NCBI RefSeq assembly: GCF_000092125.1 | Contig: NC_014212.1 | Location: 2,004,001 to 2,068,000 of the forward strand | Source: Allomeiothermus silvanus DSM 9946 | GTDB lineage: Bacteria; Deinococcota; Deinococci; Deinococcales; Thermaceae | Direction: 5' to 3' | Length of the DNA stretch: 64,000 bases | Made by a program: the position numbers and the translations under genes | Notes under the pieces: model-generated | The model's input: only the letters and a program-made list of their open reading frames with translations | Database searches by the model: none | What the model was told of the DNA's origin: nothing | Shown: positions 47,793 to 59,095 of the stretch, piece after piece | Layout: each line of letters starts with the position of its first letter | Position numbering within the stretch: the stretch's first letter is position 1

Positions 47793-50700
47793 ATGAAGAT
47801 CGACCGTCTCATTCTGCAAGGGTTCAAATCGTTTGGCGAACGCACGGTGCTTGAGTTTGGCTCCGGGGTGACGGGGATCGTAGGTCCTAATGGTTCGGGC
47901 AAAAGCAACCTCGTCGAAGCGTTGCGCTGGGTAGTGGGAGCGAAGCCCCGGGAGCTACGCGGGGAAGAGGCTCAGGCTTTGTTGTTCCACGGATCGGATG
48001 CTCGAGCGCCAATGCCCTTTGCGGAGGTAGTGCTCGAGCTTTCCCGCGGCTCCGAACGGCTCACCGTAAGCCGCCGCCTAGACCGTGACGGGGAGGCCGA
48101 GGTGCGGCTGGGGCATAAGGTTTCCACCTTGCGGGCGGTGGAACGAGCGCTGGCCGGAGCTGGGCTGGGGCGGGGCGGCTACGCAGTGATTGGGCAGGGC
48201 GAGATCGGTAGCATCCTGCAAGCCGGCCCGGAGGTGCTCCTGGGCTACCTCGAGGAAGCCGCTGGACTCAAGGCGGTAGCCTTGGCCGCCAACAACACGC
48301 GCGAACGGCTTGCAGCAGCGGCGCAGGAAATGCAGGCCCTCGAGGCCGAGCACGCCCGCATGCAGGGGGCCCTGCGGGAAAAATCGGCTCAGGCCGAGGC
48401 CGCCCGCCAAGCCCGAGCCCTAAGCACGCAAATCCTCCGGCTGCGGCACGCGCTGATCCGGGTCAGGGCTGAGGAGGCCCTCGCTGAAGCCCGTAAGGCC
48501 GAGGAACGGATCACCGCGCTCGAGGCCGAGCGGCAGGAACTCTCGGAACGCCTGGCGCAGATACAGATCCAGAAAACCCAAGCCCAAACCGCCCTCGAGA
48601 CCCTCCAGACAGCCCACGCTGAGGCCTTGCGTCAAGCCGAGGCGCTGGTCGGGCGGCGTCGGCTGCTGCAACAGGAGCGGCAACACCACGCCGATCTGGC
48701 CCGAAGGTTAGAGCGCGAACACAGCCTGCTAGAAAGCGAACACTCCCGCCTGGCCGCCCTACAGCCCCCGAAGCCGCCCCAGATTCCGGAAGAGCAGGTA
48801 GAAAAGCGCTTGGCGGAAGCCAGCCGGCTGCAACACATCGAAATCGAACTGCATGAGGCCCAGTCTGCCCTGCGTGCGGCTCAGGCCCGCTACGAGGCCT
48901 ATCTCAAAGCCCAAGCCACCTACGAGGCTCAGCGGACTGCCTTCCTCCAGGCCCAGCGCGAGCGCGAACGGCTCGAGGCGGAGCAGGCGCAGCTTTCCCA
49001 ACGCCTAGCCGAAGCGACCCAGCACCGCCAGCAGGCCGAGATCGCCGAGAAAGCCCTGCGCGCCGAATTGAACCAGCGGGTGGAGCAGGAGAGCAAACTA
49101 TCCGCCGAAGCCCGCGCGCTACGGGCAGAGGTAGAGCGGCTGGAGGCCTTTTTGCAATCTGGGGCCGACCTCACCGAGGGGCCCCGCCGGGTCAAAGAGG
49201 CCAGGCTCGAGGGCATCATCGGCGTGGTCGCGGACCTGCTCGACGTTCCCGAGGGGCTGGAACTCGCGGTCGAGGTGGCCCTGGCCGCTCGGCTCCAGTG
49301 GGTGCTCACCGAGGACGACCGCTCGGCCCAAGCAGCCATCAAGCTGCTCAAGCAAAAGGGTGGACGGGCCACCTTCTTGCCCCTGACCCTCCTGCGGCCC
49401 GCCGCCAGGCCCCGCCGCGACTGGAGCCAGGAAAAGGGGGTTCGCGGCCTGGCGCGGGAGCTGGTGGAGGTGCGCGGCTACCCGCAGGTAGGGGCCACCC
49501 TGTTTGGCGAAACGCTGGTGCTAGAGTCGCTAGAGGCGGCCCTTTCCCTGGCCAAGCGTTACCCCGACGCGCCGCGCATGGTCACCCGGGAGGGCGAGCT
49601 CCTTGAGCCCAGCGGGGCCCTCACCGGCGGAAAGCTGCCCAAAGGCGGGCAGATGCTGGCCCTGCGGCGCCGGGTGCGGGAGGCAGCCGCCCAAGCCGAA
49701 GGGCTGGAGGGCGAGATACTCCGGCTTGCACAACAGGCCCAGCGCCTGCGCGAGGAGCTGGCTAAACTCGACCTCCCAGCGCTCCGCCAACAGGAGCAGA
49801 CCCTGCAGGCCGAGCTGCGCTCGCTTGGGGCCAACCTCGGGCGGCTACCTAAGGTCTCGGCCCCCCAAGCCCCCGAGCCGGTGGAACCCCCCGAACCCAG
49901 CGGGCTCGAGGCCCTCTTCCGCGAGCGCGAGAGGCTCCGTCAGGATTTGCAGGAGGCCCGCGAACTCCAGATGGCCTGGCGGCGCTACCGCGAGGACCTA
50001 GCCCGCTACCAGGAGGCCCAAACCCGCCTTGCCGAGCTTATCCAGCGGAAACATGCCCTGCAAAACGAACGGCAGGGAATCGAGGCCCGCCTAAGAGAAA
50101 TCACCCTCCAGGAAACCGACCTGGCCGCCCAGGAAGCCGAGCTAGGGCTTGCCGCCCTCGAGGCCGACCTCCGCGAAGCCCGCCAGGCTACCCGAGCCTT
50201 AGCCGACGAGGAATCCCGGCTGCTCTCGCGTACTAACGCGGTGCTGGCCGAACTTGAGCAGTCCCGCATTACCCGGGCTCGCCGCGAAGCCACCCTGGAA
50301 GCTCTCCAGACCGAGCAATCCGAGCTTCCGCCGGTAGAGGGAGAACTCCCCCAGGGCAGCCACCGTACCCTAACCCGCCAGTTGGCCGAAGCCGAGGCCG
50401 CTCTCCAGGCCCTAGGTGCAGTCAACCACCTAGCCGAAGCCGAGCATCACTCCCTTGCCGAGCAGGCTGAAACGCTCCAGGCTGCTTTGCGCGAGGCCGA
50501 GGAAGTGATGAGCAAGCTCGAGGCCGAGCTCGAGGCGGTCGAGCGCGAGTACCAGGGGAAGCTCACGGTAGCCTACGGGCGCTTCCGACACAAGTTCGCT
50601 GAGTACGCCGAGGCTTTGTTGGGTGCGGAGGCTCGGTTGGAGATGCTTCCTTCGCCGCCATCCAGCGGGCTGCCCCATCACCGCGGATTGCACCTGGTGC

Positions 50701-51035
50701 TGCGCCCTGCGGGGAAGCGGACCGTGGACCTCAATCTGCTCTCTATGGGTGAGCGTACCATGGGGGCCTTGGCTTTCCTCTTTGCCTTATCGGAAGCCTC
50801 GGAAGAGGGGAGAGGGTTACCGGTAGCTGTACTTGACGAGGTAGACGCCCCCCTCGACGAAGCCAACATCTTAAGGTTTGCCGGTTTTCTGCGGCGCTTT
50901 TCCCAGGAGACCCAGTTCATCCTCATCACCCACCAGAAACGCACCATGGAGGCCTGCGACGCACTGTACGGAGTGACCAGCGAGCAGGGCTTGAGCCGGG
51001 TGTATAGCATCCAGCGGGATGAGGCCCTAGCTTGA
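47793..51035 (+). CDS. smc: Chromosome segregation ATPase SMC
   Basis: 1080 residues, somewhat shorter than the typical 1150-1190. Walker A GPNGSGKSNLVEALRWVVG near residue 32, two long coiled coils rich in Ala/Glu/Arg/Gln (about 160-450 and 620-930), a hinge between (about 455-600, with EGIIGVVADLLDVP and TREGELLEPSGALTGG), and C-terminal ATPase parts with Walker B LPVAVLDEVDAPLDEANI. The ABC signature reads LLSMGERTMGAL where most SMCs have LSGGE. It organises and segregates the chromosome. Confidence 0.95.
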   Translation: MKIDRLILQGFKSFGERTVLEFGSGVTGIVGPNGSGKSNLVEALRWVVGAKPRELRGEEAQALLFHGSDARAPMPFAEVVLELSRGSERLTVSRRLDRDGEAEVRLGHKVSTLRAVERALAGAGLGRGGYAVIGQGEIGSILQAGPEVLLGYLEEAAGLKAVALAANNTRERLAAAAQEMQALEAEHARMQGALREKSAQAEAARQARALSTQILRLRHALIRVRAEEALAEARKAEERITALEAERQELSERLAQIQIQKTQAQTALETLQTAHAEALRQAEALVGRRRLLQQERQHHADLARRLEREHSLLESEHSRLAALQPPKPPQIPEEQVEKRLAEASRLQHIEIELHEAQSALRAAQARYEAYLKAQATYEAQRTAFLQAQRERERLEAEQAQLSQRLAEATQHRQQAEIAEKALRAELNQRVEQESKLSAEARALRAEVERLEAFLQSGADLTEGPRRVKEARLEGIIGVVADLLDVPEGLELAVEVALAARLQWVLTEDDRSAQAAIKLLKQKGGRATFLPLTLLRPAARPRRDWSQEKGVRGLARELVEVRGYPQVGATLFGETLVLESLEAALSLAKRYPDAPRMVTREGELLEPSGALTGGKLPKGGQMLALRRRVREAAAQAEGLEGEILRLAQQAQRLREELAKLDLPALRQQEQTLQAELRSLGANLGRLPKVSAPQAPEPVEPPEPSGLEALFRERERLRQDLQEARELQMAWRRYREDLARYQEAQTRLAELIQRKHALQNERQGIEARLREITLQETDLAAQEAELGLAALEADLREARQATRALADEESRLLSRTNAVLAELEQSRITRARREATLEALQTEQSELPPVEGELPQGSHRTLTRQLAEAEAALQALGAVNHLAEAEHHSLAEQAETLQAALREAEEVMSKLEAELEAVEREYQGKLTVAYGRFRHKFAEYAEALLGAEARLEMLPSPPSSGLPHHRGLHLVLRPAGKRTVDLNLLSMGERTMGALAFLFALSEASEEGRGLPVAVLDEVDAPLDEANILRFAGFLRRFSQETQFILITHQKRTMEACDALYGVTSEQGLSRVYSIQRDEALA

Positions 51036-51110: not shown

Positions 51111-51137
51111 TCTCGCTCGGCGAAACTACACCTCGAG
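51111..51137 (+). repeat. Hairpin repeat, family 2, copy 1
   Basis: TCTCGCTCGGCGAAACTACA then CCTCGAG. The core TCGCTCGGCGAAACTAC recurs on the minus strand at 61230-61256. It overlaps the 3' end of the recombinase gene. Confidence 0.6.
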
Positions 51138-52187
51138 CTTATCCACCACCTCAAACAGCCCCTGCAAATCCATCTTGGCGTAGATGGCGCTGGTGTTGAT
51201 GTTGCTATGGCCTAAGAGCCGGGCGGTGGCGTGGAGGTCTCGAGACACCTGATAAAACCTCGTCCCGGCGGTGTGGCGCAGCAGGTGGGCCCCCGAGTAG
51301 CGGGCCGGGAAGCCCAGGGTGCGGTAATGCCGGTTCAGGATCTCCCGCAAGCCCCGTACCGTCATGCCCCGCCCGTCCGCCTTGCGCCCGCCTAGGTTGA
51401 CCAGGACCCGCCCTTCGCCCGCCGCGGCGTGGGCCAATCGGATCCTGAGCCAGTCCTGGAGTTCTGCCACCAGTGATTTGCTCAAGGGCACGCTGCGGGA
51501 TTTGCTGCCTTTGCCGCGCTTGACCTCGAGCAGCCGCTCGGCCAGGTGAATATCCTGCACCTGCAAGTGCACTACTTCACTTATACGCAGCCCAGCTTCG
51601 GCCATCAATCGCACGGCGATGCGGTCGCGGCGGTGGTGGGGTTCCCCGGTCTCGAGGTGGGCCAGCAGATGCCGGTACAGCGAGACCGGCAACGCCGGGC
51701 GGCGCTCGTAGGCCGGGGTGGGGTCGCGCGGGGCCCTAACGCCCATAGGGAGGGTCGCGGCGTCAGCCCACTCGAGCGCTTTGTACAGCGCCCGTACCCC
51801 AGCGAGGTAGGTGGCGATGCTGCTGGGCTTGAGTGAAGGGCCATTGGCCCCCGGCTGGCGCCGGTACTCAAGCACGCGTCCGACCAGGTGGCTGCCCTCG
51901 GTCTGGAGGTCGGCGATGTACCGATCCAGGTCGTCGGCGGTAGCCTTTAGGATCTGCACCTGGGGCGCAGGGGCATCTGGGGGCCAAGCCCAGGCCAGGA
52001 AGTCGCGTACCCCCAGGCGGTAGGTCTCGAGCGTCTTGGGGCTCAAGCTGGCCCGTTTGCGCCCTTTGAGGATTAAATAGGCCTCGAGCAGTTCGAGCAG
52101 CGCCGCTTCATCGCGCTCCTGAGCGGCCCGAATGGCCGCGATGCGGCGCTTGCTGGGGTTTTGCCAGTTGGCGAGTGGGACCAGCAT
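51126..52187 (-). CDS. Tyrosine recombinase (XerC/XerD-like)
   Basis: 353 residues. An N-terminal SAM-like core-binding domain (about 30-160) precedes a catalytic domain with AEAGLRISEVVHL (Arg I), KRGKGSKSRSVPL (Lys), GAHLLRHTAGTRF (His-x-x-Arg), LLGHSNINTSAIYAKMD (His/Tyr nucleophile). It is longer than Xer proteins of about 300 residues. LEYRRQPGANGPSL in the linker is encoded by a copy of the 39-bp repeat found at 61308. TATACT (52194-52199) stands 6 bases before the ATG, and a 28-bp dif-like palindrome is immediately upstream. Confidence 0.9.
   Translation of the reverse strand: MLVPLANWQNPSKRRIAAIRAAQERDEAALLELLEAYLILKGRKRASLSPKTLETYRLGVRDFLAWAWPPDAPAPQVQILKATADDLDRYIADLQTEGSHLVGRVLEYRRQPGANGPSLKPSSIATYLAGVRALYKALEWADAATLPMGVRAPRDPTPAYERRPALPVSLYRHLLAHLETGEPHHRRDRIAVRLMAEAGLRISEVVHLQVQDIHLAERLLEVKRGKGSKSRSVPLSKSLVAELQDWLRIRLAHAAAGEGRVLVNLGGRKADGRGMTVRGLREILNRHYRTLGFPARYSGAHLLRHTAGTRFYQVSRDLHATARLLGHSNINTSAIYAKMDLQGLFEVVDKLEV
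51833..51871 (-). repeat. Single 39-bp repeat unit inside the recombinase gene
   Basis: Matches the tandem unit at 61308-61541 in 37 of 39 positions. The two stems GGGCC/GGCCC and CCGGC/GCCGG are unchanged; both differences fall in loops, and one turns a TAG of the tandem unit into CAG in the recombinase frame. 39 bases equal 13 codons, so the frame is kept. Confidence 0.9.
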
Positions 52188-52193
52188 GGGGTG

Positions 52194-52199
52194 AGTATA
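52194..52199 (-). promoter_or_regulatory. -10 box of the recombinase gene
   Basis: TATACT on the minus strand followed by 6 bases and the ATG. The palindrome at 52202-52233 lies directly upstream, where the -35 region would be. Confidence 0.6.
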
Positions 52200-52201
52200 T
52201 C

Positions 52202-52233
52202 AAATTTCCCCTAAGATGTCTTAGGGGAAATTT
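52202..52233. promoter_or_regulatory. Perfect 15-bp inverted repeat; dif-like site or operator
   Basis: Two 15-bp arms separated by TG. Read as a Xer site, ATTTCCCCTAA and TTAGGGGAAAT are 11-bp arms around the 6-bp centre GATGTC; the inner TAA/TTA and outer AAAT agree with the general dif pattern. It may alternatively be an operator for the recombinase promoter. Confidence 0.6.

Positions 52234-56621: not shown

Positions 56622-59095
<2,474 letters not shown>

Follow-up and report, generated by a model that had tools for sequence, protein, structure and literature searches.

The inverted repeat that lies directly upstream of a tyrosine recombinase gene on the main chromosome of Allomeiothermus silvanus DSM 9946 (M. 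silvanus) raises the question of whether it is the chromosomal dif site of a Xer system or, as the original prediction also allowed, an operator over the recombinase promoter. The window, that is, the whole 64-kb stretch of DNA that was analysed, lies on the main chromosome (C1, 3,249,394 bp); the genome has three replicons and totals 3,721,669 bp. The sequence-level evidence (site geometry, arms that co-vary, linkage to the gene, a position at the terminus, no XerC or XerD above the cut-off, an FtsK gamma domain, promoter overlap and further copies) points to a chromosomal dif site of a single-recombinase Xer system, a reading to which we give a probability of about 0.86.

The repeat and the adjacent recombinase

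The inverted repeat is present as predicted and perfect over its length (Table 1), although its extension through the centre GATGTC is due only to the chance pairing of GA with TC. The proposed reading as two 11-bp arms around that 6-bp centre was borne out by comparison with relatives. Judged from these comparisons, the 11-6-11 parse is the biological one, because the centre varies while the arms are constrained and paired across relatives. The 28-mer is the sole match in the window even when three mismatches are allowed, and shuffles yielded none. Perfect 11-6-11 repeats number three in the window as compared with 0.01 per simulated window, and the remaining two (12211 and 29505) are GC-rich hairpins. 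Elsewhere in the window, at 57931-57968, a perfect 14-bp inverted repeat (GATTATTTTCACGA/TCGTGAAAATAATC) of operator-like appearance was seen just upstream of a GAPDH-like ORF.

Table 1. Coordinates of the site, its gene and related copies. Bare numbers are window positions; C1 to C3 without a genome label are replicons of M. silvanus.
Feature	Position	Strand	Details
Tyrosine recombinase, 353 aa, presumed single Xer enzyme	51126..52187	-	PF00589, E 3e-28
Promoter-like pair of recombinase gene	52194..52222	-	-35 AAGACA (52222-52217, inside site), -10 TATACT (52199-52194), 17-bp spacing
Full perfect inverted repeat around dif-like site	52202..52233	.	15-bp arms, 2 bp between
Dif-like site, 11-6-11	52204..52231	.	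ATTTCCCCTAA-GATGTC-TTAGGGGAAAT
6-bp centre GATGTC, presumed crossover region	52215..52220	.	Differs in every other genomic copy
Arm copy	C1:1574041		Centre GCCTTA; 48.4% of chromosome; arms identical to window site
Arm copy	C2:335907		Centre GGGAAA; plasmid-sized replicon
Arm copy	C3:69321		Two arm mismatches; plasmid-sized replicon
Thermus site examples	G029:C1:606380, G048:C1:1138013, G024:C3:1000817		

The distance to the recombinase ATG is 14 bases for the 32-bp repeat and 16 for the 28-mer; the claimed adjacency stands, and the claimed distance of 15 bases does not. The adjoining gene encodes a complete tyrosine recombinase, as had been stated, and the next gene is indeed smc (47793-51035, named from its translation), which converges on it. 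On the other side, a diverging 115-aa ORF is followed by hisS, likewise named from its translation.

The candidate catalytic residues of the recombinase, R201, K226 or K229, H301, R304, H327 and Y336, are all invariant in alignment A1. The protein falls below the curated cut-offs for XerC, XerD, XerS (NF003462, 89 bits against 267) and archaeal XerA (NF040815, 105 bits against 220). For its predicted structure (mean pLDDT 77, pTM 0.53), the nearest solved fold is archaeal XerA 4a8e (Z 21.6, rmsd 11.2 over 258 residues) and XerH 5jk0_B is near the top of the matches (Z 18.0, rmsd 7.4 over 269 residues, 19% identity); because the rmsd values are large and the pTM is 0.53, the relative domain placement in the model is not reliable. 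In a tree from which the rows of G002, G009 and G049 were left out as wrong-frame extractions, and whose rows did not include XerH sequences, the Meiothermus-type and Thermus recombinases are separate from each other and from E. coli XerC and XerD. As to a rival recombinase with a better dif, a concern of the original prediction, no canonical XerC or XerD reached the NF001399 cut-off in any of 50 Thermaceae genomes (5 of 14 control genomes were positive). An FtsK gamma domain was present in 6 of 6 genomes tested (PF09397, 92 bits in M. silvanus, G000).

Meiothermus-type genomes also encode another conserved tyrosine recombinase, about 250 aa long and short at its N-terminus (G000:C1:553338, G008:C1:555273 and homologues), beside which no dif-like repeat was seen. 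This protein was considered as the dif enzyme and rejected for two reasons: its gene is found 17-18% along the chromosome in the two complete genomes, and in G016, where the gene start was resolved, it has no inverted repeat upstream.

Conservation, terminus position and promoter overlap

Besides the window genome, each of the 21 genomes of Meiothermus, Calidithermus or Allomeiothermus type has a relative of the 353-aa recombinase (best match 57-88% identity), the relative in G011 being a fragment with 55% identity; among the Thermus genomes searched, just one (G037) has a recombinase of the Meiothermus type. The expectation that the site would recur beside this gene in Thermales relatives held: a repeat of the 11-6-11 type stands upstream of the recombinase gene at 25 of 32 loci examined. 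At a further locus (L093) the repeat is displaced upstream. The others, namely G010, G011 and four distant loci from MAGs (L089-L092), showed no convincing repeat before the gene, and these six were counted against the dif reading.

Twenty-four sites were tabulated, comprising 23 of the 32 examined loci and one Oceanithermus plasmid gene. Every one of them has a 6-bp centre, and between the repeat and the tabulated start codon there are 16 to 23 bp. Arm sequence varies with the clade: it is ATTTCCCCTAA in the window genus, ATTTCCCTTAA in Calidithermus, ATGCGCACTTA or AAGCGCACTTA in the ruber group and ATTTCGCATAA in the plasmid-type paralogue. Arm-to-arm pairing is kept at 234 of 264 positions in this set, and therefore a change in one arm is mostly matched in the other. 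In G001, G009, G015, G019 and G008 the arms are incompletely symmetric, like those of ordinary dif sites.

The chromosomal position of the site was compared with cumulative GC skew, which was sampled along the chromosomes with a nearly continuous reading around the switch. dnaA is at the chromosome start both in M. silvanus and in G008, a single-contig relative of 3,097,457 bp. The M. silvanus skew peaks at 1,987,198 on a broad plateau from 1.96 to 2.065 Mb, and the site at 2,056,204 is 69 kb (2.1% of the chromosome) from the maximum; in G008 the peak is at 1,618,027 and the site at 1,588,871, an offset of 29 kb (0.9%). The predicted proximity to the GC-skew switch was thereby found in both chromosomes. 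In the survey of Kono et al., dif offsets of 0-1.39% correspond to one sigma, and outliers reach at most 3% (PMC3025954). In G018, counting from dnaA, the site is 52.4% of the way along the chromosome. The M. silvanus site is 13% off the geometric opposite of dnaA, and the skew switch is displaced the same way; this offset and the breadth of the skew plateau were both counted against the dif reading. Motifs of the E. coli KOPS type (GGGNAGGG) are skewed in orientation left of the site in M. silvanus (131:79), and there is no such skew left of the site in G008.

The site also overlaps the promoter-like pair of the recombinase gene. A -10-like box stands at the equivalent place in relatives and is weaker in the plasmid-type paralogues. 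The original prediction had posed an operator instead of dif, which proved to be a false choice: a recombinase on the site would cover the -35 region, and therefore dif and operator are not alternatives. The site probably serves as both, and the recombinase likely represses its own gene.

It is improbable, in our estimate, that the repeat is an operator alone, through which the recombinase or another dimeric repressor would control the recombinase promoter without strand exchange. The repeat does lie exactly over the promoter-like pair, its symmetric arms suit a homodimer and its position relative to the start codon is conserved. However, gene and site are at the terminus in distinct genomes, a place that an operator does not need, and this placement recurs in Thermus with an unrelated recombinase. 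The spacing is always 6 bp, the spacing of dif. Furthermore, the other copies are not found at the promoters of a gene set: they are on plasmids, where they have no common neighbour, or about 200-280 bp upstream of unrelated integrases.

Further copies and a counterpart in Thermus

A single copy per chromosome had been expected of a dif site, but the site is not strictly single-copy. The M. silvanus genome holds four copies of the arms with centres that all differ, and two of them are on C1; the number of copies was counted against the dif reading. The second C1 copy is inside an integrated element and has another centre. It is flanked by a Prim-Pol gene (PF09250) on one side and an unrelated integrase on the other, as is an extra copy in G008, and arrangements of this kind recur in further genomes. 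A group of integrated elements (L031, L173 and similar ones in L043, L047, L048, L052, L053 and L055) has a dif-like site beside an integrase, and for several of them a Prim-Pol-type protein of about 1000 aa on the other side of the site is shown or likely. These elements are possibly phage-plasmids of Thermaceae. A scan of viral contigs for the exact site pattern gave no matches.

In G006, G007 and G016, the element arms are of the silvanus/Calidithermus type and the host's own site is of another type, a pattern suggestive of transfer between hosts. Related elements in G008, G016, G017 and G021 have a common centre, CTTTAC, unlike the centres of their hosts. Plasmids also carry recombinase paralogues that have a site of their own upstream, one of the 58% class in M. 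taiwanensis and a more distant one in Oceanithermus; the plasmids concerned are pMtWR-220 and pOCEPR01. We infer that plasmids and elements would resolve their multimers at the extra copies by means of the host enzyme.

A motif, GACCGCGTAAAA...CGCTAAGG, followed by a GC-rich hairpin and then AGGGGTAGAC, was observed near two site copies that do not adjoin the gene, at L001 1631-1700 (G000:C1, about 1,574,175) and L003 1405-1470 (G000:C2, about 335,815). It is absent from all other loci fetched.

The C1:1574041 copy could itself be the true chromosomal dif, with the window copy secondary. Its arms are the same and it is nearer the geometric opposite of dnaA, but it sits inside the integrated element, GC skew remains positive for the most part past it, as far as about 1.99 Mb, and in relatives the gene-adjacent copy is the one opposite dnaA; we regard this as very unlikely. 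Least likely of all is that recombinase and site are a mobile-element integrase and its attachment site, unrelated to chromosome dimers: integrases often adjoin their own att sites, and paralogues with upstream sites occur on the two plasmids named above, but the gene is present throughout the 21 relatives (as a fragment in G011), it stands beside the housekeeping genes smc and hisS without a surrounding element, and no flanking duplicate of the site is nearby.

Thermus has a distinct recombinase (open frames of about 304-330 aa); where it aligns with the window protein, the identity is 28%, and its identity to E. coli XerD is 33%. Directly before its gene, in the promoter and ahead of a TATAAT-like box, is TTCGCGAAA-GGTACA-TTTCGCGCA. 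Gene and site are opposite dnaA in all six genomes checked (47.6-54.6%). The Thermus-type pattern occurs in 26 of 50 family genomes, all of them Thermus, and a reversed control pattern in none. The centre of the gene-adjacent site is GGTACA in 23 of the 26, a count that includes a G034 site some 295 bp ahead of the gene match, which is perhaps not the promoter site. None of 40 other Thermus copies shares its centre with the gene-adjacent site of its own genome, as chance would likewise give. In G037, the Thermus genome with the Meiothermus-type recombinase, the Thermus-type site is missing and the Meiothermus-type gene is preceded by a repeat of its own; it therefore seems that one recombinase/site pair can stand in for the other as a unit.

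A proposed single-recombinase system and its relatives

Linkage to the gene in relatives, proximity to the GC-skew switch and the lack of XerC or XerD above the cut-off support the dif reading. General features of Xer/dif systems are likewise found here: a 28-bp 11-6-11 site, a location at the terminus and skew switch, intact catalytic residues and FtsK gamma. In the mechanism that we propose, two monomers of the adjacent recombinase would bind the matching arms. On a dimeric chromosome, two sites would pair at the division septum, presumably delivered there by FtsK, and the recombinase would cleave and swap strands across the 6-bp centre, converting the dimer into two monomers. Bound to the site that covers its promoter, the enzyme would also repress its own gene. 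Plasmids and elements with similar arms and other centres would probably resolve their own multimers without recombining with the chromosome.

A broader and more tentative model, to which we give slightly less than even odds, is that one Xer enzyme would serve all Thermaceae replicons through shared arms, with the replicon-specific centre as an address, the chromosomal site as the switch of the enzyme's promoter, and two recombinase types that are exchangeable, as in G037. Differing centres among copies are also expected by chance and alone are no proof of the address idea; the constancy of GGTACA at the gene-adjacent Thermus sites is the stronger point.

With a defined site and its cognate enzyme, the resolution of chromosome dimers becomes open to testing in thermophiles, T. 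thermophilus among them. The system would add one, perhaps two, single-recombinase Xer lineages, would show a dif embedded in the promoter of its own recombinase, and would offer a thermostable site/enzyme pair for DNA work. The summary table of a large bacterial dif survey has no Deinococcus-Thermus row (PMC3025954), and we found no published description of a dif site for either Thermus or Meiothermus in a search that did not extend to subscription papers or supplementary tables; priority is therefore not certain. The phage phiOH3 paper mentions Meiothermus and dif and does not describe the host dif.

From its sequences, this is apparently an undescribed single-recombinase Xer/dif system that has a recombinase lineage of its own and can be compared with XerS, XerH and XerL. 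Like XerS/difSL of streptococci and lactococci, it has one recombinase (about 355 aa in XerS), a site adjoining the gene and a terminus location (PMC5357621); difSL, however, is 31 bp long, its arms are unequal and its central region measures 11 bp, in contrast to the 6-bp centre here. XerH/difH of Helicobacter and Campylobacter similarly combines one recombinase of 354-362 aa with a site near the GC-skew peak, linked to the gene in most species (PMC2731167, PMC5357621). The arm sequences differ, those of difH being AGTTATGAAAA/AAAAGTTTGA; in the present system the symmetry of the arms is nearly perfect and the promoter of the gene contains the site. XerL/dif of Legionellales is alike by description, with a single recombinase outside XerCD, a terminus site and a mobile-element dif mimic, and in Coxiella the recombinase gene is on a plasmid with an adjacent site (PMC9765430). 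The Legionella mimic integrates at dif, whereas the Thermaceae element copies have other centres and their own integrases. Archaeal XerA/dif shares the single recombinase and provides the nearest solved folds, yet XerA is reported to act without FtsK (PMC5357621), while FtsK gamma is present here. Finally, XerCD/dif and plasmid pdif share the 11-6-11 geometry, the inner TAA/TTA and plasmid-borne relatives of the chromosomal site, but XerCD differs in using two recombinases and unlike arms.
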